Notes: generated by a model from the letters alone, not told the origin. A stretch of DNA of 64,000 nt from Bacteroidetes bacterium SB0662_bin_6 (GCA_009839485.1 VXPQ01000032.1:278982-342981); one strand, 5' to 3'; numbered from the stretch's first letter, positions 15,636 to 55,046 are shown. Program-made: numbers and translations.

Positions 15636-17672
15636 TTACCCCCATATCGGCCAGTGCACGCCGAAACGGAAACGGCCCGCAGGAAGCGGGTATACCGGCA
15701 CGAGCATGGTCCCTTCCACCAGCGATGCACCCGCCGGTACATGATCGTACACGAAAAAAAGACGGGCCGTGCGCACACGTACTTCCGCCACGATATTGCC
15801 TGTGTTCGAGGCGCCGAGCAATAGAGAAGACGCCTCCGGCACGGCAAGCAGCCCGGTGGGCGCATGGAGCGATCGACTGTGAAAAGCGGACCATGCCACG
15901 CCTTCCGCGTAAAGATCGAAGCGCAGATCGCCCTGGAAAAGCGCATACCGCACGCCAAGGCGCGCCCTTGCGAACCAGCGGGGAAGCGTACCGGCAAGAC
16001 GTTTATGCAAAGGCGAGCCGCTCTGTTCGACAATGTGCGTAAAGGTAGGACGCGCCATCGCATAGAACCCGCGCTGGGCATGACGGCGCCAGCCGATATC
16101 CGCGTAAACAGCCACCTGTCGGAGGGGTGACGGCGCCATGGTCGTAACGACTTCCTCAGCGGCAACAAACACATCGACCGGATCACGGGCCTGGTACCCG
16201 AATGCCCCAAGCGCTATGACAAAGGGGCCTTTCCGTACGGACCCCTCCGTATACATCGAAAAGGTTCGTCCCGGCCGTACGTCGCGTTGTCCGCGCAGGG
16301 TGCCGAAACCGGTATCGTATGCGACGGGGGTACGCGGTTTGCCGGTCGAGGCGCCGACGCGCCAGGAAGTTCGGATTCCGCGGCGCGCCAACCGGACCGA
16401 ACCGGCAAGGCCCCCGCTCCGGTGAAAAAACCAGCCTGCCGCCGGCTCCAGAGTCCATTTCCGTTCCTTTCCATCCTCACCGGGGCGCCCGAAACGCAGC
16501 GAATCGCGGGCCTCCACATACATGGCGAAGCGACGTACTGCGGATTCCCGGAATGTCCCTCGAGGCGCCATGTGCTCCGACCACCCCTCCATACGGATCG
16601 CAAGCCGGCTCCTGACAGTGCGCATCAGGGGCTGGTGGACACGCACCCCGGTACGCATCGAACGGGTACCGAGCGTGTCCAGGGCGTTGTGGTACCGGAA
16701 TGTTTCTGTAGAATGATACACCGTCGAAGAAGTGACGCCGGCAGGGAACAACCGGGCGCGCACGATGCCCGCCAAACCGTTGCGCACGATACGCCGCTCG
16801 GCTTCCGGCATATCGACCTGGGCGATATCGCTCCGGTAGATCGCGTCGGGATCACCGGGCAGAACCAGGACTCCCTCGTGCGCGCCGATCCGGCGGCGCT
16901 GGCTCATATACAGCACCTCTGCCGACCAGGCACGCTGCGTATACCGCACGCGCAAGGTGGTGCGTCGTCCGCGCGCCAGATTGCTGCCCGGATACGGGAC
17001 CTCTGTGGCCCGCCCGCCGTAGGCCCCGAGCACCTGCAGCAATCCGGGATGTCCCCTGAACGATCGCCGCCGTTGCTGGGCGTGCACTACATCTATGCTC
17101 TGGAGTCCCTCCCCATCGCGCCAGTAGGTGGCTTCGGTAAGGGGCGCCGGTCCTTCGTACGGCCGCAATTGGGCATGCACGCCGGCAGGATGCCCCCTCG
17201 CCCCGGCGGGGTCAAAACGGGGAGGCGCAACAAGAGCCAACGGAACCAGATCCCAGGCCGGGCGCCCGGTGAAAATGTCCGTAAACGGAATGCCGTCCAG
17301 AGTAAGCGGGCGCGTGTTGGGAGAAAGCCCGAACGGACTCCAGCCGTCGGGCCAGCCCGGACGATCGAAAAGGTAGGTGAAGCTGCCGGGCGCACCGGCA
17401 ACAAGTTCGACAAGACGGATATCGGGCCGGAGCGCCGGGATCGAATCGGAAAGGGCCCATACGCCCCTGGTCTCCTCATGCAATGCATCCCCGAATCCCA
17501 TCATATCAAGAGGCATCCGGGTAAGGGAATCCAAGGCGGCCGGCGCCGGGTCAATACCCAACGCCGTGGTATCCGGCTCTTGTGCGGCTACGGGAGCACA
17601 CAACAAGCACCCAACCAGAACGATATACCGGAGGCGCCCGGCCAGAACGATACACCGCAGGTACGCCGTCAT
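15636..17672 (-). CDS. Putative outer-membrane beta-barrel protein (TonB-plug-like N-terminus)
   Basis: The product is 678 aa with a signal peptide ending in CAPVAAQ. The region around residues 85-150 (APGSFTYLFDRPGWPDGWSPF, TLDGIPFTDIFTG) resembles the plug part of TonB-dependent receptors. The remainder is rich in alternating hydrophobic/aromatic strands separated by Arg-rich turns, as in 16-22 stranded barrels. No TonB box is obvious. The C-terminus FRFGVHWPIWG is strand-like but does not end in the usual aromatic residue. Its start overlaps the upstream epimerase-like gene by 4 bp (ATGA). Substrate and role unknown. Confidence 0.6.
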   Translation of the reverse strand: MTAYLRCIVLAGRLRYIVLVGCLLCAPVAAQEPDTTALGIDPAPAALDSLTRMPLDMMGFGDALHEETRGVWALSDSIPALRPDIRLVELVAGAPGSFTYLFDRPGWPDGWSPFGLSPNTRPLTLDGIPFTDIFTGRPAWDLVPLALVAPPRFDPAGARGHPAGVHAQLRPYEGPAPLTEATYWRDGEGLQSIDVVHAQQRRRSFRGHPGLLQVLGAYGGRATEVPYPGSNLARGRRTTLRVRYTQRAWSAEVLYMSQRRRIGAHEGVLVLPGDPDAIYRSDIAQVDMPEAERRIVRNGLAGIVRARLFPAGVTSSTVYHSTETFRYHNALDTLGTRSMRTGVRVHQPLMRTVRSRLAIRMEGWSEHMAPRGTFRESAVRRFAMYVEARDSLRFGRPGEDGKERKWTLEPAAGWFFHRSGGLAGSVRLARRGIRTSWRVGASTGKPRTPVAYDTGFGTLRGQRDVRPGRTFSMYTEGSVRKGPFVIALGAFGYQARDPVDVFVAAEEVVTTMAPSPLRQVAVYADIGWRRHAQRGFYAMARPTFTHIVEQSGSPLHKRLAGTLPRWFARARLGVRYALFQGDLRFDLYAEGVAWSAFHSRSLHAPTGLLAVPEASSLLLGASNTGNIVAEVRVRTARLFFVYDHVPAGASLVEGTMLVPVYPLPAGRFRFGVHWPIWG

Positions 17673-18595
17673 GCCGACCCCGATTTTCCGCGCCGTTTCA
17701 GGTAGGACAGGTTTTCCGGCGAAAACGGCTTGAATGCGAGGTCAAAATCCTGATAAAAAGCCGTGCTGTCGCAGGTGTTGCCCTCCATGAGCATGTCGAA
17801 CTGGTCCAGGGAAACAGGAAGGATGCCTGTGCCGTCCAGAAAACGGATCACCGGGCGCACAAGAACGGAAGGGTTCGGGATTTTCAGTTTCCGGGCGTGT
17901 CCGATCGCATCCGTTATGCGGTCGAGCAATTCAAGGAATGTGATGCGCTCCTGCCCCCCGGCATAATAGATCTTGCCATGCGCCGCATCCAGCGTGAGCG
18001 CCTGCACGAACGCCGCCGCAATTTCCTCGACAGACACCGGCTGCATCTCAAAGCGGCCGTTGCCGAAAACGGGCAGCACCGGCAAGGGACGCACCAGGGT
18101 GCGGGCCAACTCGGACGCAAATTCGAAACCGCCCGGTCCAGGGTCTCCGAAAATGAGCGAGGGACGGAAAATCGTCCAGTGGGCAAAACCTGCCTGCCGG
18201 ACATATTCTTCCGCATGCCACTTCGAGGTCTGATAGGCGGATACGCCATCGCGGCGGGCGCCATTCGCACTCATCTGGATAAATCGGGAAATGCCGGCCT
18301 TGCGGGCTTCGTCCACGACGGCTTTCGTGCCCCCAACGTGGATTGCATCGAAGGTAACGCCCCGTGCAGGATGTTCCTGAATAATCCCCACCAGATGAAT
18401 CACGGCATCGCAGCCGTCCATGACTCCGTGCAACGTATCCGGGGAAGTCACAGAGCCGGATACCTGCTCTACACGGTCCGGCATCGCATCGGCTTTGTTT
18501 CGAACCAGACCACGCACGGTGTGCCCCTGCCGGAGCAGTTCACGGAGGATATAGCCTCCCACGAAACCCGTACTCCCGGTAAGAAAAACGGTCAT
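17669..18595 (-). CDS. NAD(P)-binding extended-SDR protein, NDUFA9-like/epimerase family
   Basis: The product is 308 aa. The N-terminal Rossmann motif is GSTGFVGGYILRELL, followed by a VIHLVG strand. The usual Tyr-x3-Lys is present as AYQTSKWHAEEYV. The central RPSLIFGDPGPGGFE and VFGNGRFEMQPVSVEEIA segments match atypical SDRs annotated as complex I NDUFA9-like or YfcH/quinone-binding proteins. The exact reaction is uncertain. It overlaps the next gene by 4 bp and lies 48 bp downstream of pfkA, suggesting one transcript. Confidence 0.85.
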   Translation of the reverse strand: MTVFLTGSTGFVGGYILRELLRQGHTVRGLVRNKADAMPDRVEQVSGSVTSPDTLHGVMDGCDAVIHLVGIIQEHPARGVTFDAIHVGGTKAVVDEARKAGISRFIQMSANGARRDGVSAYQTSKWHAEEYVRQAGFAHWTIFRPSLIFGDPGPGGFEFASELARTLVRPLPVLPVFGNGRFEMQPVSVEEIAAAFVQALTLDAAHGKIYYAGGQERITFLELLDRITDAIGHARKLKIPNPSVLVRPVIRFLDGTGILPVSLDQFDMLMEGNTCDSTAFYQDFDLAFKPFSPENLSYLKRRGKSGSA

Positions 18596-35648: not shown

Positions 35649-35779
35649 AATGTCAAGCGTGCTGCGACAAGGCACTTCGCCTCGAATATACCCTGTACGA
35701 GACCATTTTCGTAAAGTGCCCATTCGGGCGGGAATAATTTATCATCGCAACTCCGACGGCGCCTTGTCGTACCTTTTTT

Positions 35780-35968
35780 AGGATACTCTGATCAAAACCG
35801 CTTCGATCAGCGCTTCACGTTCGTGCGTGAAGCGCCCTTCGGGAGACTGCGAGAAGCACGCTGACTGCGTCATTCCTCATTATGTGGGACCTGCCACATT
35901 GCTTCGTCATTTCTTGACAACGCACTTCTCGCAGCCTCTGAACTTTGCGGACTTAATCAGAGTATCCT
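35780..35968. repeat. 189-bp MITE-like element with terminal inverted repeats AGGATACTCTGAT
   Basis: The left end 35780-35792 is AGGATACTCTGAT and the right end 35956-35968 is its exact reverse complement. Inside, 35810-35835 is a perfect hairpin (GCGCTTCACG-TTCGTG-CGTGAAGCGC). The inner arms CTGCGAGAAG and CTTCTCGCAG enclose ATGTGG-GACCTG-CCACAT. No coding frame is seen. It occupies about half of the 383-bp gap between the S41 peptidase and lemA. Related ends occur at 5677, 26751 and 53540. Confidence 0.78.
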
Positions 35969-36031
35969 ATATCGCAGGAACACTCCGGCGTGCCTGCACT
36001 CTTTCCTTACCGATCATTAATTCGCAGTGCG

Positions 36032-45422: not shown

Positions 45423-48143
<2,721 letters not shown>

Positions 48144-48148
48144 GGGGT

Positions 48149-48260
48149 GATCTTATCGGGGTCGGGCAGCGGCGGAACGATGCGGGCGTTCGCCGGTCAA
48201 CAGGCCCACGCGGTCCGCACGGATCTTATTGAGGTCAGGCAGCGGCGAAACGATGCGGGC
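48149..48260. repeat. Two 39-bp direct repeats after acnA
   Basis: Copies at 48149-48187 and 48222-48260 share GATCTTAT, GGTC, GGCAGCGGCG and AACGATGCGGGC with four mismatches. The period is 73 bp. They lie in the 161-bp gap between acnA and the convergent small exported protein gene. No function is assigned. Confidence 0.65.
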
Positions 48261-48304
48261 CCGCCTCTACAGAACATTCCGGGAATGTCTGGGGGGCTCC
48301 CCCC

Positions 48305-48859
48305 TCATATCCTGACATCCGGCGCGGCGCGTTCCGCATCCAATGCGGCGCGCCCCGTTTCCACTGCTTCCGTGGCGACCTCCTCCAGGTGCTCGAGTTC
48401 GGTCTGCCATTCGCCGTAGGCCCGCGAAGCCGACATCCATGCATGGGGAGCGTACAGCCCCCCCGCGGCTTTTCTGGCGCTTCGCTTCAGCCCCTTGACT
48501 TTCCGGGTACCCTCCCGGGCCAATTTCTGCAATTCCAGCATACGATCGGTCCATGCCCGCACGTGGTCCTCGGAACGGTATTGCATATCGGCCATGTTGG
48601 CGGTTTCCGAAGCAATGTTCGCGGAGAATTTGCGCGTGTTTTCGGCGGCGAGCCGGGCTATCCGCTGATGCTCTTCCGCCATACGGACATTGTTTTCATC
48701 TCTCAGTTGCGCAAGACCCTCAAGGTCCTCCATATACCGCGCCAACTGAGCTATCTGCACCTGTGTCGTATCCTCGACAAAAATATCCGGGGACTGCGCC
48801 CGGGTTTCAGGGGCCAGTGCGAAGACGGCAAGCACAGCGATGGCGATATGCCTCTTCAT
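48305..48859 (-). CDS. Exported coiled-coil protein of unknown function
   Basis: The product is 184 aa from ATG 48859, which gives a signal peptide (HIAIAVLAVFALAPETRAQ). The mature chain is almost wholly helical and charged, with heptad-like stretches (QIAQLARYMEDLEGLAQLRDENNVRMAEEHQRIARLAAENTRK, shown here only in part by family-free description) and Ala/Glu-rich C-terminus. It could be a periplasmic scaffold. No close family is recognised. A longer frame to 48937 lacks a leader. Confidence 0.6.
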   Translation of the reverse strand: MKRHIAIAVLAVFALAPETRAQSPDIFVEDTTQVQIAQLARYMEDLEGLAQLRDENNVRMAEEHQRIARLAAENTRKFSANIASETANMADMQYRSEDHVRAWTDRMLELQKLAREGTRKVKGLKRSARKAAGGLYAPHAWMSASRAYGEWQTELEHLEEVATEAVETGRAALDAERAAPDVRI

Positions 48860-49158
48860 TCGGATCTCGTACGGTTCCGTGAAAGAGCTTGGGGAGAAGC
48901 AGCCGGAAATCGTCCGTAAAAACCGGGAAGCGCTCATAAAAAACCGGCCAGGGCATCATCCTGTTTATTGGATGTCCATGCGCGACAGCGGTTCCGGTTG
49001 AAGGCCCCATTGCCCAAAGGATACGCGATTACATCCTCGAACATCCGCGCTCCGGACCCGGCGCTGCCTCCATGTTCGCCACATCCACAATCTCCTTTAC
49101 GCACCCTGTGTATAGTAGCACCATCGGGGCGCCTGCGCAACACTCTATAGACTATTTT
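48860..49158. other. Gene-free spacer, 299 bp
   Basis: It separates the small coiled-coil gene from the end of the hydantoinase B gene, both on the minus strand. No gene or clear terminator is seen; TTTTCATTCC-like T-rich DNA lies just after the hyuB stop in the complementary strand direction. It likely holds the promoter of the coiled-coil gene. Confidence 0.35.
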
Positions 49159-50727
49159 TCATTCCCTGCCCCAACCCCCGCCGCCCGGCGTTTCGATCCG
49201 CAGCACATCGCCGGCTTCGAGCCGCCGGCTGAACTTCGCGGGCAGCGTTTCTTCCCCGCCGCCGGGCCGTACGAGCGTATTGCGTCCGCAGGCGCCGGGC
49301 GCACCGCCCTGCAACCCCCACGGAGGCGTCTCCCGCCGTTCGCTGATTACCGTAACGGTGGCGGGCCGGAGCAACCGGTAGGCGCGAATCAGACCATCTC
49401 CGCCCCGTCGCTCGCCCGCCCCGCCGCTCCCCCGGCGCAGCGCATAGGTCTCGATGCGAAACGGAAACGTCATCTCCAGCGCTTCGACCGGCGTGTTCAG
49501 CGTGTTGCTCATGTGTACGTGTACGCCGCTCAGACCGTCCGCCCCGGCGGAAGCGCCCATGCCTCCCCCGATGGTTTCGTAGTACGCATAGGGCGACCCG
49601 TCGGCGCGGGAGCCCCCGATGGTCAGGTTGTTCATCGTGCCCTGCCCGGCTGCCGACACGCGCGCCGGCATGGCCTGTGCGAGGGCGCCGAAAACCGCAT
49701 CCACGATGCGTTGCGAGGTTTCGACGTTGCCGGCGGACACCGCATGGGGCGGATCGGCGTGCACGAGGCACCCCGGCGGAGCCGTAACCCGCACGGGCGC
49801 AAAACATCCCGCATTCATGGGAATGTCGGAGGCGGCCAGACAGCGCACCGCATAGTAACAGGCGGACTCCGTGATAGGGAGCACCGCGTTCAGCGAACCG
49901 GTCACGGCGGGGGAAGTCCCCTCAAAATCGAACGTGACGCCGTCCCCCTCGATACGGGCCGCCACCCGGATAATCGCCTCTTCCCCGTTCGGCGCTTCGC
50001 CGGGAGCGATTTCCAAGGTATCCTCGAACCGGAAAACCCCGTCCGGCCATTGCCGGATATGCTCGCGAAGCAGGCGTTCGCTCCAGACCGACAAATGCGC
50101 CGCATACGCTTCGACCTCAGCCGCGCCGTGGCGGTCGATCAATGCCGCAAGCCGCGTCTCGGCCACCGAGTGCGCCGCCTGTTGCGCAGCCAGATCGCCG
50201 CGCCGCTCTTCCGGCGTGCGGACATTACGCAATACGAGTTTCTCCAGGTCGGCTGCGAGCCTGCCCTCGTTGCGCCATTTCACGGGGGGGATAATGACGC
50301 CTTCCTGGTACAATTCGCCCGAAAGCGGAAGCGACCCGGGACTCATGCCCCCCACGTCGGCGTGGTGGGCCCGGCTGGCGGCAAAGAACACGAGGCGGTC
50401 GGCCACGAACACCGGGGAGATCATGGTGATGTCCGGCAAGTGCGTGCCGCCTGCATAGGGATCGTTCAGAATGACCGTGTCGCCGGGGCGCCATACATCG
50501 ATGGCGTCCAGCGCGGCTTCGAGGCTGCGCGGCATGGCGCCGAGATGTACCGGAATGTGCGCCGCCTGGGCCACCATCCCGCCGCGGCTGTCGAACACGG
50601 CGCACGAGAAATCCAGCCGCTCCTTGATATTGGGCGAATAGGACGTGCGCTGCAGCGTAACGCCCATTTCCTCAGCGACCCCTGAGAAACGATGCCGGTA
50701 GAGTTCGAGGAGAATCGGGTCCATCAC
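49159..50727 (-). CDS. hyuB: Hydantoinase B / oxoprolinase subunit B-like protein
   Basis: The product is 522 aa. Family motifs: [44 protein letters not shown] at the start, [54 protein letters not shown] and the Gly-rich [10 protein letters not shown] at the end. With HyuA-type partners these proteins hydrolyse hydantoins, 5-oxoproline or N-methylhydantoin, or carboxylate ketones (acetone/acetophenone carboxylases). The substrate is not clear. It overlaps the upstream hyuA gene by 4 bp. Confidence 0.92.
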
Positions 50728-52715
50728 ATTCTCGAGAAATGCAGATTACGCCAGGCATCCACTTCGACATGCCACGAGGGAGGAACGAAAACGGTCGCAT
50801 CGTACTGGGCCACTACGGCGGGACCGTCGAACGCATGTCCGCAGCGCAACCGGTCGCGGTCGTACAGCGCCGCCATGACCTCCTCGCCGCTATCCAGCAC
50901 GACCGGGGTCTCTCCGACCTGCGCGGCTTCGGAGGTCTCCGACGCCCCGGCCCGATCCGTGTCCTGCGGCAGAACAACCTCGGCCCCTGCCGCCGTTCCC
51001 CGCACGCGCAGCGTCACGATCTCCACGACGGCGTCCCGCATCGCGTACCCGTACCGGCGGGCGTGTTGTTCATGAAAACGCTCCCGGGCACGCTCAGGGC
51101 TCGCGGGGTCCATCGGTACGGTCAATTCGTAGCTCTGCCCCCGGTACCGCATATCCGCAAGGGTTTCGATGGCGGGCGTCCCGCCATCCTCCCCGGCAAA
51201 GACATTCAGAATTCGTTCGGTTTCCTGCGCATAGAGGGCTTCGAGGCCGGTCGTGTCGTCGGGAGCCGAAACGGACGTATCGTACACGATATCCGCCATC
51301 AACAGGCCCAGCGCGCTCAGTACGCCCGGCTGCGGAGGAAGCAGAATGCGACGGATCGAGAGCGCATCCGCCAGTTCGCAGGCATGCAGCGGGCCGGCGC
51401 CCCCGAACGGGACCAGCGTATAGTCCTTCGGATCGTACCCGCGCTCCACGGATACGCGGCGCAAGGCGCGCTCCATCGACGCATTCGCGATCCGGACGAT
51501 GCCCAGCGCCGTCTGGTGGAGGGACAGCCCCAGCGAACGGCCCAGTTTTTCCACGGCATCCCGCGCCGTGCCGGCGTCAAGGGCGAAATCGCCCCCGAGA
51601 AACCGGTCGGGCAGGATCCGGCCCAGCGTCACATTCGCATCCGTGACGGTAGGCGCATCGCCGCCCCGCCCGTAGCATGCCGGGCCCGGTACGGCGCCGG
51701 CGCTCTCGGGGCCGACATGAAGCGCTCCCGCTGCGTCGGCATGGGCAATGCTCCCCCCGCCGGCGCCCACCGTATGGATATCGACGGATGGAAGGCGCAG
51801 CGGCAATCCCGCAATGGCGCTTTCGGCGGTGCGCGGTATTTCGCCGGGACACAACGCCACGTCCGTACTGGTGCCTCCCATGTCGAGGGTGAGAATCTTC
51901 GGAGCCTTTTCGCCGAGCGCGGTTCCGGCAAGCCGGAAGGCCCCCACGACCCCGCCGGCCGGCCCGCTGAGCACCAGGCGGGCGGAACGGCGAGCCGCCT
52001 GTTTCGTGCCGATGACGCCCCCGTTCGATTGCATGATGCGCACCCGCCTGGGCGCCACGGCGCGTTCGAGCCGGTCCAGATACCGCGCCACGATGGGCTG
52101 CACATAAACATTCACGACCGTGGCGGCCGTCCGTTCGTATTCCCGGTATTCCGGCAGAATATCCGCGCTCAGCGAAAATCGCGCATCGGGAAGGTATCCC
52201 TTCAGAATCTCCGCCGCTTTGCGTTCATGTTCCGGATACAGAAACGAGAAGAGAAACACGATGGCCACACCGGCCACGTCAAGATGTTGCAGCGTTTCCC
52301 CCAGTTCGGCCACTTCGCGCTCGTCCAGAGGGGTCAGGATCGAGCCGTCGGCGGCCACCCGCTCCGTGACTTCAAACCGGAGGTCCTCCGGCACGAGCGG
52401 GGGCGGACGGCGCTGGGAAAGCGCATACAGTGCGGGACGATTCTGGCGTCCGATCGCCAGGACATCGCGGAAACCTCTGGTCGTCACGAGGGCGCACCGC
52501 GCGCCGCGATGTTCGAGAAGCGCATTCGTGGCCGTGGTGGTGCCATGCGCAATCGCCGCCGCTTCGCCGGCCCCGAGCAACCGTACGCCTTCCCCCACGG
52601 CGCGGCTCTGGTCATCCGGTGTGGTGGCCGTCTTGCGAATGACGGGCGCCCCATCCTTGAGGTGCACGAAATCCGTGAACGTCCCGCCCGTGTCGATCCC
52701 GATGCGTTCCGTCAT
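50724..52715 (-). CDS. hyuA: Hydantoinase A / oxoprolinase subunit A-like ATPase
   Basis: The product is 663 aa. The actin-like ATPase motifs are IGIDTGGTFTDFVHL at the N-terminus and LTLDMGGTSTDVALC in the middle. AHGTTTATNALLEHRGARCALVTTRGFRDVL and PFGGAGPLHACELA are also typical. It provides ATP-dependent activation for the reaction completed with HyuB. Its ATG overlaps the lexA stop (ATGA) and its stop overlaps the hyuB start (ATGA), so all three are translationally coupled. Confidence 0.93.
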   Translation of the reverse strand: MTERIGIDTGGTFTDFVHLKDGAPVIRKTATTPDDQSRAVGEGVRLLGAGEAAAIAHGTTTATNALLEHRGARCALVTTRGFRDVLAIGRQNRPALYALSQRRPPPLVPEDLRFEVTERVAADGSILTPLDEREVAELGETLQHLDVAGVAIVFLFSFLYPEHERKAAEILKGYLPDARFSLSADILPEYREYERTAATVVNVYVQPIVARYLDRLERAVAPRRVRIMQSNGGVIGTKQAARRSARLVLSGPAGGVVGAFRLAGTALGEKAPKILTLDMGGTSTDVALCPGEIPRTAESAIAGLPLRLPSVDIHTVGAGGGSIAHADAAGALHVGPESAGAVPGPACYGRGGDAPTVTDANVTLGRILPDRFLGGDFALDAGTARDAVEKLGRSLGLSLHQTALGIVRIANASMERALRRVSVERGYDPKDYTLVPFGGAGPLHACELADALSIRRILLPPQPGVLSALGLLMADIVYDTSVSAPDDTTGLEALYAQETERILNVFAGEDGGTPAIETLADMRYRGQSYELTVPMDPASPERARERFHEQHARRYGYAMRDAVVEIVTLRVRGTAAGAEVVLPQDTDRAGASETSEAAQVGETPVVLDSGEEVMAALYDRDRLRCGHAFDGPAVVAQYDATVFVPPSWHVEVDAWRNLHFSRM

Positions 52716-53365
52716 GCCGGATAACTGCGAGGCGGGCCGTACGTATGGTGAATGCCGCTATGGTTCACATGCCCTACGTATCGTCCCAGCACCCGGACTT
52801 CCTCGAAAATATCCGGTTTGATGCGGATGTCCTCGTATTCCTCGTTGGCCGGTTCGAGGCGCAACCCGTGCTCATCGTAGTATACCCGCTTCAGAGACGT
52901 CTCGCCATTGTAGAGAATGGCGCCGATGCCTCCGTTGGGAATATCGTCGTCTACCAGCAGCACATAATCGCCGTCATGAATGTCGGCGCCGATCATCGAT
53001 TGCCCCGATACGCGGATCGCAAAAATGCGATCGAGATTGGGAAAGAGCGTCTCGAGCGTAATAGTCCCCAGATCCGCATCGACGGCTTCCTGCAACTGTC
53101 CCGCCGATATAATGCCGCGCACGGGAATGCCCGCCGCGCTTGTCAGAAAGTCGTCTTCGTTGATGAGGCGGTATCCCCGGCTACCCCTCGTGAGAAATTC
53201 CTTCTTCCAGAGGGCTTCGAGGTTCTGGGTGACGCTGTTGGGGGACCGGAACCCGAAATGCGCGGCAATCTGACGGTAGGTGGGCCACACCCGGTGGACA
53301 CGCACGTACCCCGAGATATAACGGAGAAATTCGTATTGCTTCGATGTCAGCTTTTTACGGCTCAT
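52712..53365 (-). CDS. lexA: LexA repressor
   Basis: The product is 217 aa. The winged HTH is about residues 1-65 (KQYEFLRYISGYVRVHRVWPTYRQIAAHFGF; NSVTQNLEALWKKEFL). The self-cleavage site is Ala88-Gly89 (IISAGQL), with the catalytic dyad Ser123 (VSGQSMIGA) and Lys159 (ETSLKRVY). It represses the SOS regulon until RecA-triggered autoproteolysis. A candidate operator lies about 90 bp upstream. It is the first gene of an apparent lexA-hyuA-hyuB operon, an unusual arrangement. Confidence 0.94.
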   Translation of the reverse strand: MSRKKLTSKQYEFLRYISGYVRVHRVWPTYRQIAAHFGFRSPNSVTQNLEALWKKEFLTRGSRGYRLINEDDFLTSAAGIPVRGIISAGQLQEAVDADLGTITLETLFPNLDRIFAIRVSGQSMIGADIHDGDYVLLVDDDIPNGGIGAILYNGETSLKRVYYDEHGLRLEPANEEYEDIRIKPDIFEEVRVLGRYVGHVNHSGIHHTYGPPRSYPA

Positions 53366-53454
53366 GACGGTTTGACGCGCCGGTTTTTATGACACGAAGA
53401 GGAGTATGGAGACGCCGCGACAGGGGCGATTATACGGCGGAATACCCGACATCT

Positions 53455-53471
53455 TGTACATATAACGTACA
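53455..53471. promoter_or_regulatory. Candidate LexA operator upstream of lexA
   Basis: TGTAC-N7-GTACA is a perfect 5-bp-arm palindrome in an AT-rich stretch, extended to TTGTACATATAACGTACAGT. It resembles the CTGT-N8-ACAG-type LexA boxes. Location 90 bp upstream of the lexA start fits autoregulation. Confidence 0.5.
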
Positions 53472-53539
53472 GTATATGATTGTTTCCTTGCAACGTCAAG
53501 AGAAACGACAAAAAAAATCTTCCGAATGCGGGGCGCTTT

Positions 53540-53647
53540 AAGGATACGCTGATTAGGGCCTGTTACCACTGTGCAGCGGCGCTTTGCGGGGCCTGTTTTC
53601 CTGCCAGGCCAGGCGCTACGAGGGGTGGTTTTGATCAGCGTATCCTT
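53540..53647. repeat. 108-bp MITE-like element with ends AAGGATACGCTGAT
   Basis: The left end 53540-53553 is AAGGATACGCTGAT and the right end 53634-53647 is its reverse complement. TTAGGGCCTGTTACCACTGT follows inside the left end, linking the AAGGATAC and GGGCCTGTT repeat motifs in one element. It lies between lexA and recO and touches the recO stop region. No coding content. Confidence 0.72.
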
Positions 53648-53648
53648 A

Positions 53649-54407
53649 TTACCTGGGGTTGAGGAGTTGCTTCACCACGCGGCTGCCGCGGGTTGGCCAG
53701 GTGTCCTCGACGTGGTATCGCAGAAAATCCTCGATAAGCCGGCCCAGCTCCGCAGCCGTGCGCTCGTCCATGCGCATCTGCATGATCGTATCGGGATCGG
53801 CGCAGGCGACGATGGCGAACGCGCGCAGGGTCCGGCGCGTGGCAAAGCGCATGGTTTCGCGGTTCCGGCGCCCCTCGGACGGCTCCACCGAGCCGGTTTC
53901 CAGCAGGAGCGCGCCGCCGGATTCAGGGATGCGCTCGACGGCTTCCCGGTCGATGTGCGGCGCAAAACCAAGGATTCCCGCCAGCCGCAACTGAAAAAAA
54001 TAGAACAGGTGCTCGGCTCGGTCCGCATGACGATTCAGCCGGTCCAGCACATCGATCAGAAGCTGAAACACAAGCAGGTTTTCGTCTTCGTCCTGCATCA
54101 GCGCCTGCACGAGTTCGACCACGCGCTGGCCGTACGCAAGCGCCGCAAGATCCTTGTGCAGGTCCCCGAATGTCCGGATGTGGCTGCTTTCGGAAAGGGT
54201 CTGCACATGCCGGGTATCCTTCCAGTACAGCACGGCCTGCACATACGACATGGGTTGCAGGGTCGATCCGAATCGGCTTTTGGGCCGCAGCGCGCCCCGG
54301 GCCATAACGGCCACCTTGCCCTTCTCCCTGGTGAAAAGCGTGACGATCCGGCTGGTCTCGCCGTACTGGATGCTTCGGAGCACGATGGCCTCAGTACGAA
54401 TAATCAT
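53649..54407 (-). CDS. recO: DNA repair protein RecO
   Basis: The product is 252 aa. The N-terminal OB fold is recognisable: IIRTEAIVLRSIQYGETSRIVTLFTREKGKVAVMARGAL, followed by RPKSRFGSTLQPMSYVQAVLYWKDTRHVQTLSESSHI. The C-terminal helical region has LFYFFQLRLAGILGFAPHI. The four zinc cysteines found in some RecO proteins are absent, as in many Bacteroidota. It loads RecA with RecR during gap repair. It neighbours lexA, another DNA-damage gene. The start ATG 54407 is preferred to one 9 bp upstream. Confidence 0.92.
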   Translation of the reverse strand: MIIRTEAIVLRSIQYGETSRIVTLFTREKGKVAVMARGALRPKSRFGSTLQPMSYVQAVLYWKDTRHVQTLSESSHIRTFGDLHKDLAALAYGQRVVELVQALMQDEDENLLVFQLLIDVLDRLNRHADRAEHLFYFFQLRLAGILGFAPHIDREAVERIPESGGALLLETGSVEPSEGRRNRETMRFATRRTLRAFAIVACADPDTIMQMRMDERTAAELGRLIEDFLRYHVEDTWPTRGSRVVKQLLNPR

Positions 54408-54476
54408 CACGAACAATCATTTTGAGGGGCCGAAGTTATATTCGCGGCTTCCTTGTGTCTGTGTCAGGAAAAAACC

Positions 54477-55046
54477 ATGCGACTGCTTCATCGCTTGCAG
54501 CAACGGCTGAGCCTGACGAGACACGAGGCCATGGCGCTCTCGTGTCTGTCCGGATTGCTCATTATCGGCATTATTGTACGTCAAGTCCAGCAACAGGCCA
54601 TATTGCTGCCGCCGGATGCCTACGACGAACTGGACCGCATCTTTTTCGAGCGGTCGGGGATGCAAATCGGCGGCGCGGCGGATACGACTTCGCCGGCGCT
54701 TGCAGCCTCCGCCAGCGAAGCGGATTCCGGCAAGTACGAGGCCGCAGCGACGGCCTCCTCGACCCGCGAACCCCCCGGCGAGCCATCCGGTTCGGGAGCG
54801 CTGCACATCGACATAAACCGGGCGGGCGCATCGGAACTCGAAAAACTGCCCCGTATCGGACCGAAGACGGCCGAACGCATTCTTGCGTTTCGCGACGCCT
54901 ATGGAGCGTTTCGCTCGGCAGACGATCTGCAACAGGTGAAGGGTATCGGACCAAAAACCCTCGAACTCCTGCGGCCCCATGTTTACGCAGGAGCGCATCC
55001 CCCATCCGTCGACTCGTCTTCCGGCGATTCATCGGCCGAACCATAG
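54477..55046 (+). CDS. ComEA-like membrane-anchored helix-hairpin-helix protein
   Basis: The product is 189 aa. One N-terminal membrane helix (AMALSCLSGLLIIGIIVRQ) precedes a low-complexity Ala/Ser/Pro linker. A double HhH DNA-binding domain lies at about residues 102-165: IDINRAGASELEKLPRIGPKTAERILAFRDAYGAF and QQVKGIGPKTLELLRPHV. ComEA relatives bind and pull incoming DNA during natural transformation. Its last 64 bp overlap a convergent small membrane protein gene. Confidence 0.9.
   Translation: MRLLHRLQQRLSLTRHEAMALSCLSGLLIIGIIVRQVQQQAILLPPDAYDELDRIFFERSGMQIGGAADTTSPALAASASEADSGKYEAAATASSTREPPGEPSGSGALHIDINRAGASELEKLPRIGPKTAERILAFRDAYGAFRSADDLQQVKGIGPKTLELLRPHVYAGAHPPSVDSSSGDSSAEP

Follow-up and report, generated by a model that had tools for sequence, protein, structure and literature searches.

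A lexA-hyuA-hyuB unit predicted to be under LexA control in an uncultured Rhodothermales genus, most likely formed by loss of intervening genes

The gene for the SOS repressor LexA is joined, with no intergenic space, to the genes for a two-subunit enzyme, HyuAB, in an uncultured genus of Rhodothermales known from metagenomes (JANQSQ, OX638295, OX638293, JAJDWX, and JAJECT). We consider it likely that lexA-hyuAB is one LexA-autoregulated unit restricted to this genus, that it was created by the loss of spacer genes, and that a rise of HyuAB upon DNA damage would be a passenger effect. In the proposed model, transcription would start at a single promoter before lexA and cover lexA, hyuA, and hyuB, with hyuA and hyuB translated by stop/start coupling at both joints. 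LexA would repress the unit by binding next to the -10 element, at a direct-repeat box of the form TGTAC-N6-TGTAC, RecA-stimulated self-cleavage of LexA would release the whole lexA-hyuAB unit, and expression of hyuAB would rise with that of lexA upon DNA damage. The window, that is, the whole stretch of DNA analyzed, comprises 64,000 nucleotides from Bacteroidetes bacterium SB0662_bin_6 (GCA_009839485.1; VXPQ01000032.1:278982-342981) and contains the following genes.

52712..53365, minus strand: lexA, encoding the 217-aa SOS repressor, in which A88-G89, S123, and K159 are the S24 self-cleavage residues
50724..52715, minus strand: hyuA, 663 aa, ATP-binding subunit of a lactamase-family (hydantoinase/oxoprolinase) enzyme that depends on ATP, its start falling in the lexA stop (ATGA overlap)
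49159..50727, minus strand: hyuB, 522 aa, subunit that holds the metal site of this enzyme, with a GTG start and an alternative ATG at 50724
53649..54416, minus strand: recO, upstream neighbor of lexA, from family scans

The lexA, hyuA, and hyuB reading frames were confirmed, and profile family scans agreed with the names given in an earlier note on this DNA (LexA, hydantoinase A, and hydantoinase B). That note had also described both junctions as ATGA overlaps, which is correct for the first and incorrect for the second. The lexA/hyuA junction (...CCGGCATGACGG...) is a genuine ATGA overlap of the lexA stop and the hyuA start. At the hyuA/hyuB junction (...AGAATGTGATGGACCC), hyuA ends in ATG-TGA and hyuB begins with GTG-ATG-GAC, the overlap being GTGA with the GTG start or TGATG if hyuB starts from its second codon, ATG. 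Four-nucleotide overlaps are ordinary by chance, and another one occurs in the window (15636-17672 and 17669-18595, minus strand); what is above chance is the conservation of the lexA/hyuA ATGA between species whose LexA proteins are just 83% identical. The second overlap in the window (15636-18595) is an odd pairing in its own right, of an NAD-dependent epimerase-like gene with a 678-aa open reading frame that has a weak porin match. No structured RNA was found at the junctions, Rfam giving only two tRNAs across the window.

Upstream of lexA, two putative regulatory elements were located.

53471..53499, minus strand: predicted lexA promoter TTGACG-17-TATACT, the sole promoter-like site on either strand within 48100-54500
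53454..53471, minus strand: putative LexA operator (SOS box) TGTACGTTATATGTACAA, adjoining the -10 element and built as a direct repeat, TGTAC-N6-TGTAC, with period 11

The scan of 48.1 to 54.5 kb covered sigma-70-type promoters, and one match is within chance for such a scan; the same promoter layout is also present in five other genomes of the genus. The earlier note had proposed a single operon and had named an internal promoter or terminator separating hyuAB as the observation that would speak against it. Neither a promoter-like nor a terminator-like site was seen in the window at the lexA/hyuA or hyuA/hyuB junction, and the proposal is favored by the overlapping genes lying behind the predicted lexA promoter. 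Judged from this sequence layout, lexA-hyuA-hyuB most likely form one LexA-controlled transcript, and hyuAB are probably made under DNA-damage control. Alternatively, hyuAB may be transcribed mainly from a promoter of their own, hidden in lexA or hyuA, in which case the overlap would have little regulatory meaning. A promoter of a non-sigma-70 type would be invisible to the scan used, and in two genus genomes (G003 and G004) hyuAB lie 260 bp away from lexA with selection still acting. However, the junctions are empty of promoter-like and terminator-like sites, and both stop-start overlaps leave no intergenic room, such that we regard this alternative as unlikely.

LexA matched PF01726 (LexA_DNA_bind) and PF00717 (Peptidase_S24) above cut-off and TIGR00498 (1e-28, 100 bits) slightly below the cut-off of 110.95; it was the sole LexA-type match in the source genome. 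Its Ala-Gly cleavage site (A88-G89) and Ser-Lys dyad (S123/K159) are invariant in 15 LexA sequences, and the cleavage residues align with those of solved LexA repressors. Elsewhere, in family f4 (G022:C59:168133-169444, G008:C28, and G032:C39), a tandem pair of lexA-like genes lies side by side; in two of these genomes, one of the matches is interrupted by a stop.

Across the order, a TGTRY-N6-TGTRY direct repeat is enriched upstream of lexA (z 9.9 versus shuffles; 21 upstream regions), occurring at 9/10 or better in 15 of the 21 regions compared with 1.85 in shuffles. A palindromic LexA box was considered and rejected, inverted spacings scoring lower (best z 8.1, versus 9.9 for the direct repeat with spacing 6), and it should be kept in mind that alternating TG/CA sequence gives several box spacings good scores. 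In the sister group Balneolaeota, LexA binds the direct repeat TTACACATATTTTWTACATA in gel shifts, and its regulon includes recA, a radical SAM gene, and translesion polymerases (PMC7739468). The reverse complement of TTACACATATTTTWTACATA is TATGT-N6-TATGTGTAA, with the same layout and 11-bp period as the box before lexA, which conforms to the Balneolaeota type, a (T)ATGT-N6-TATGT direct repeat with an 11-bp period.

A pattern built from the Rhodothermales and Balneolaeota boxes, TGTAYNNNNTATGTRYAA, was used to scan the six genus genomes (G000 to G005). It is exact at lexA in four of them (G000, G003, G004, and G005); in G001 and G002 the lexA site deviates, lying within one mismatch on the other strand and allowing a palindrome reading as well. 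In five of the six genomes, a site also lies at least 46 bp before a radical SAM gene, and recA is preceded by a one-mismatch site in three.

G000:C60:8652 (L193), L192, L203, L189, and L200: PA0069-family radical SAM gene with a conserved box upstream

Genome-wide, the one-mismatch count is equal to that of a reversed-pattern control (6 versus 6 in G000), and weight was therefore placed on exactness, position, and conservation; a genome scan with a looser box, TGTRY-N6-TGTAC, gave no clear excess (21 versus 12 in the reversed control). In one species only, a box-like TGTACAAAATATGTACAT was seen ~65 bp before a cysteine-desulfurase-like gene (G004:C1:134826, L204). The earlier note had raised the prospect of an operator upstream of lexA, and the putative box lends substance to it. 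Since this box sits at the promoter, matches the gel-shift box of Balneolaeota, and recurs at recA and the radical SAM gene, the predicted SOS control of lexA-hyuAB is well supported at the sequence level, for hyuAB through the box and the gene overlap. LexA may also regulate itself through the predicted box in its own promoter, which is present and conserved. Of the SOS genes sought in the six genus genomes, lexA and recA are present and a Y-family DNA polymerase (Pfam IMS) was not found in any. The genus may thus have an SOS set that does not include translesion synthesis, which would be unusual if real.

Within the genus, hyuA follows lexA in all six genomes and hyuB comes next in five; in the sixth (G005), the contig ends inside hyuA and hyuB is off-contig. 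The order, which the earlier note had allowed might be found only in this genome, is therefore kept across the genus (n = 6), although the tight unit is confined to the genus. The ATGA overlap is kept in four of the six genomes (G000, G001, G002, and G005). In G003 and G004, a MITE-like element of ~260 bp, a full family member, lies between lexA and hyuA; trees place these two genomes inside the genus beside G000, with G001 and G002 outside, indicating that the genus inherited the overlap from its common ancestor and that the MITE arrived later. G001 and G002 carry a lone 16-bp MITE end between hyuA and hyuB, which supplies the hyuA stop codon. Members of this family were located as follows.

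53539..53648, no strand: MITE-like unit separating recO from the lexA promoter, its 15-bp inverted ends, TAAGGATACGCTGAT, being perfect
35779..35969, 26751, and 31755: further MITE-like family sites in the window
L033 (at the lexA-hyuA junction) and L234-L241: additional MITE-like family sites

The family has inverted ends GGATACTCTGATYA and units of ~254, 187, and 63 bp; its end motifs number 80 to 239 per genus genome, with none in a reversed control. Tens of copies are present per genus genome, often in intergenic gaps, and a MITE end can give an adjoining gene a stop codon (TAAGGATAC). Purifying selection is similar on lexA, hyuA, and hyuB with or without the MITE (dN/dS 0.07-0.14).

Beyond the genus, recO-lexA adjacency is conserved over much of the order Rhodothermales, and the region after lexA behaves as a loose block in which a methyltransferase (MT), GH13, or photolyase (phr) gene comes next. 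Among 80 named loci, the orders recO-lexA-GH13-acnA (n = 12) and recO-lexA-MT-phr (n = 8) were found, and three rarer orders occurred once each: recO-lexA-MT-hyuA-GH13-hyuB, the arrangement of family f12; lexA-MT-hyuA, that of f6; and recO-lexA-MT-phr-hyuA, seen in one f7 genome at a contig end. Direct lexA-hyuA adjacency was present only in the window's genus, which retains recO-lexA at one flank and acnA at the opposite flank but has no GH13 gene at this place. In three f14 genomes (G018, G028, and G049), the hyuA and hyuB orthologues are ~100 kb to 1 Mb apart. No orthologue of the methyltransferase was left in the genus genomes, only superfamily matches of 31-34%. Furthermore, LexA of the genus runs ~10 residues past the usual C-terminus, as expected of a deletion junction. 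Given the spacer genes in relatives, the methyltransferase loss, and this extension, deletion is the simplest account, and the tight lexA-hyuAB coupling most likely came from loss of intervening genes. The ancestor of the genus, whose genomes are small, would have lost the methyltransferase and the amylase-like GH13 gene, fusing lexA in transcription to hyuAB. hyuA may have lain near lexA since the origin of the order or may have been gained there later in some families; the HyuA and HyuB trees both have a weak backbone.

This neighborhood history argues that HyuAB under SOS control is most likely a passenger effect of gene loss, not a matter of DNA repair. The earlier note had floated a tie between SOS and hydantoin lesions or 5-oxoproline, for which we found no support beyond the enzyme family name. 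HyuAB might nonetheless have been recruited to SOS for a benefit upon damage, its targets being, for instance, free hydantoins released from oxidized bases, or 5-oxoproline or other cyclic amides after stress proteolysis. Such a role would fit the long retention of the coupling in the genus (dS ~0.7 between G000 and G001), the purifying selection on hyuA and hyuB (w ~0.14), and the position of hyuA one or two genes after lexA in f6, f12, and f7. However, in most other families with hyuAB the genes are away from lexA (f3, f8, f9, f14, and f15), where they are near it unrelated genes lie between, and the surrounding genes include metabolic ones that have no part in repair. In addition, in the two genus members whose junction is broken by a MITE, selection on hyuAB is not relaxed (w ~0.1). 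A literature search for a tie of LexA or mitomycin C to hydantoinase returned none. We therefore view recruitment as quite improbable. Bolder still, and in our view very improbable, is a rewired SOS response of the genus, with no Y-family polymerase found, made up of recA, a repair-type radical SAM enzyme, and an ATP-dependent hydrolase of cyclic amides, driven by the lexA unit, whose task would be to remove a product of damage (free hydantoins from oxidized bases, or 5-oxoproline from stress proteolysis).

In the passenger reading that we prefer, HyuAB would be an ATP-dependent enzyme of the oxoprolinase/hydantoinase (lactamase) family that hydrolyzes cyclic amides and serves a housekeeping or catabolic purpose. 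HyuA contains the Hydant_A_N, Hydantoinase_A, and Hydant_A_C domains, and HyuB is a full-length Hydantoinase_B. The three ATP motifs of HyuA (DxGGTxTD, DxGGT, and GxxPGP) read DTGGTFTD at 8, DMGGTSTDV at 278, and GAVPGP at 340, and the metal ligands D39, H96, D99, and H121 of HyuB align with D41, H99, D102, and H124 of CapB. With these three motifs and four ligands in place, HyuAB is expected to be catalytically active as an ATP-dependent member of the lactamase family. The family scores of the pair fall far below every equivalog cut-off, including that for acetophenone carboxylase and those for caprolactamase (NF050156/NF050157; 482 and 239 bits versus cut-offs of 1000); it is thus not the caprolactamase equivalog. 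The nearest solved proteins by sequence are N-methylhydantoinase and caprolactamase.

HyuAB may instead be specifically the 5-oxoprolinase of these bacteria in place of PxpABC; its position would then be a matter of housekeeping, which agrees with the passenger reading. None of the six genus genomes carries PxpA, which is likewise missing from 58 of 60 genomes of the order, and 5-oxoproline formation is expected in all cells (PMC13274462). However, about half of the order lacks both PxpA and a close HyuAB, and across the 60 genomes, nearly all without PxpA, no mutual exclusion or anticorrelation was seen; the lack of PxpA thus gives no particular reason to take HyuAB for the oxoprolinase, and replacement of PxpA was not adopted. 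Since the low equivalog scores and the best solved matches also speak against it, we hold a 5-oxoprolinase assignment to be possible but doubtful.

Taken together, lexA-hyuAB would offer a clear case of a metabolic enzyme brought under SOS control when the genes that had separated it from lexA were lost; the genomes whose unit is interrupted by a mobile element serve as natural counter-examples. With the predicted boxes, the direct-repeat LexA box of Balneolaeota would now reach into Rhodothermales, and the genus survey suggests that this uncultured genus mounts its SOS response without translesion polymerases.

Among known systems, Escherichia coli lexA-dinF is a lexA operon with a damage-inducible partner. 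The likeness is that lexA comes first in a co-transcribed unit that its own product represses, as predicted here; the difference is that the partners here are subunits of a metabolic ring-opening enzyme with no repair role known. For the enzyme, N-methylhydantoinase (PDB 7hk5) is the best solved-structure sequence match (HyuA 1e-140, HyuB 1e-81), but it is one fused chain of 1288 aa, and no histidine of its HyuB half falls at the position of H121. CapAB caprolactamase of Pseudomonas jessenii (PMC8453981; PDB 6yra) has two separate subunits with the ATP motifs and the Asp-His-Asp-His metal set, as HyuA (DxGGTxTD, DMGGT, and GxxPGP) and HyuB do, whereas HyuB is ~60 residues shorter and the pair scores 482 and 239 bits versus 1000. 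For the regulation, the Balneolaeota LexA regulon (PMC7739468) differs in including translesion polymerases, where the genus has no Y-family member found and a lexA unit with hyuAB instead. It is otherwise alike: LexA is ~60% identical in Balneolales loci, the lexA promoter carries a direct-repeat box with an 11-bp period, and in both groups recA and a radical SAM protein gene also have the box.
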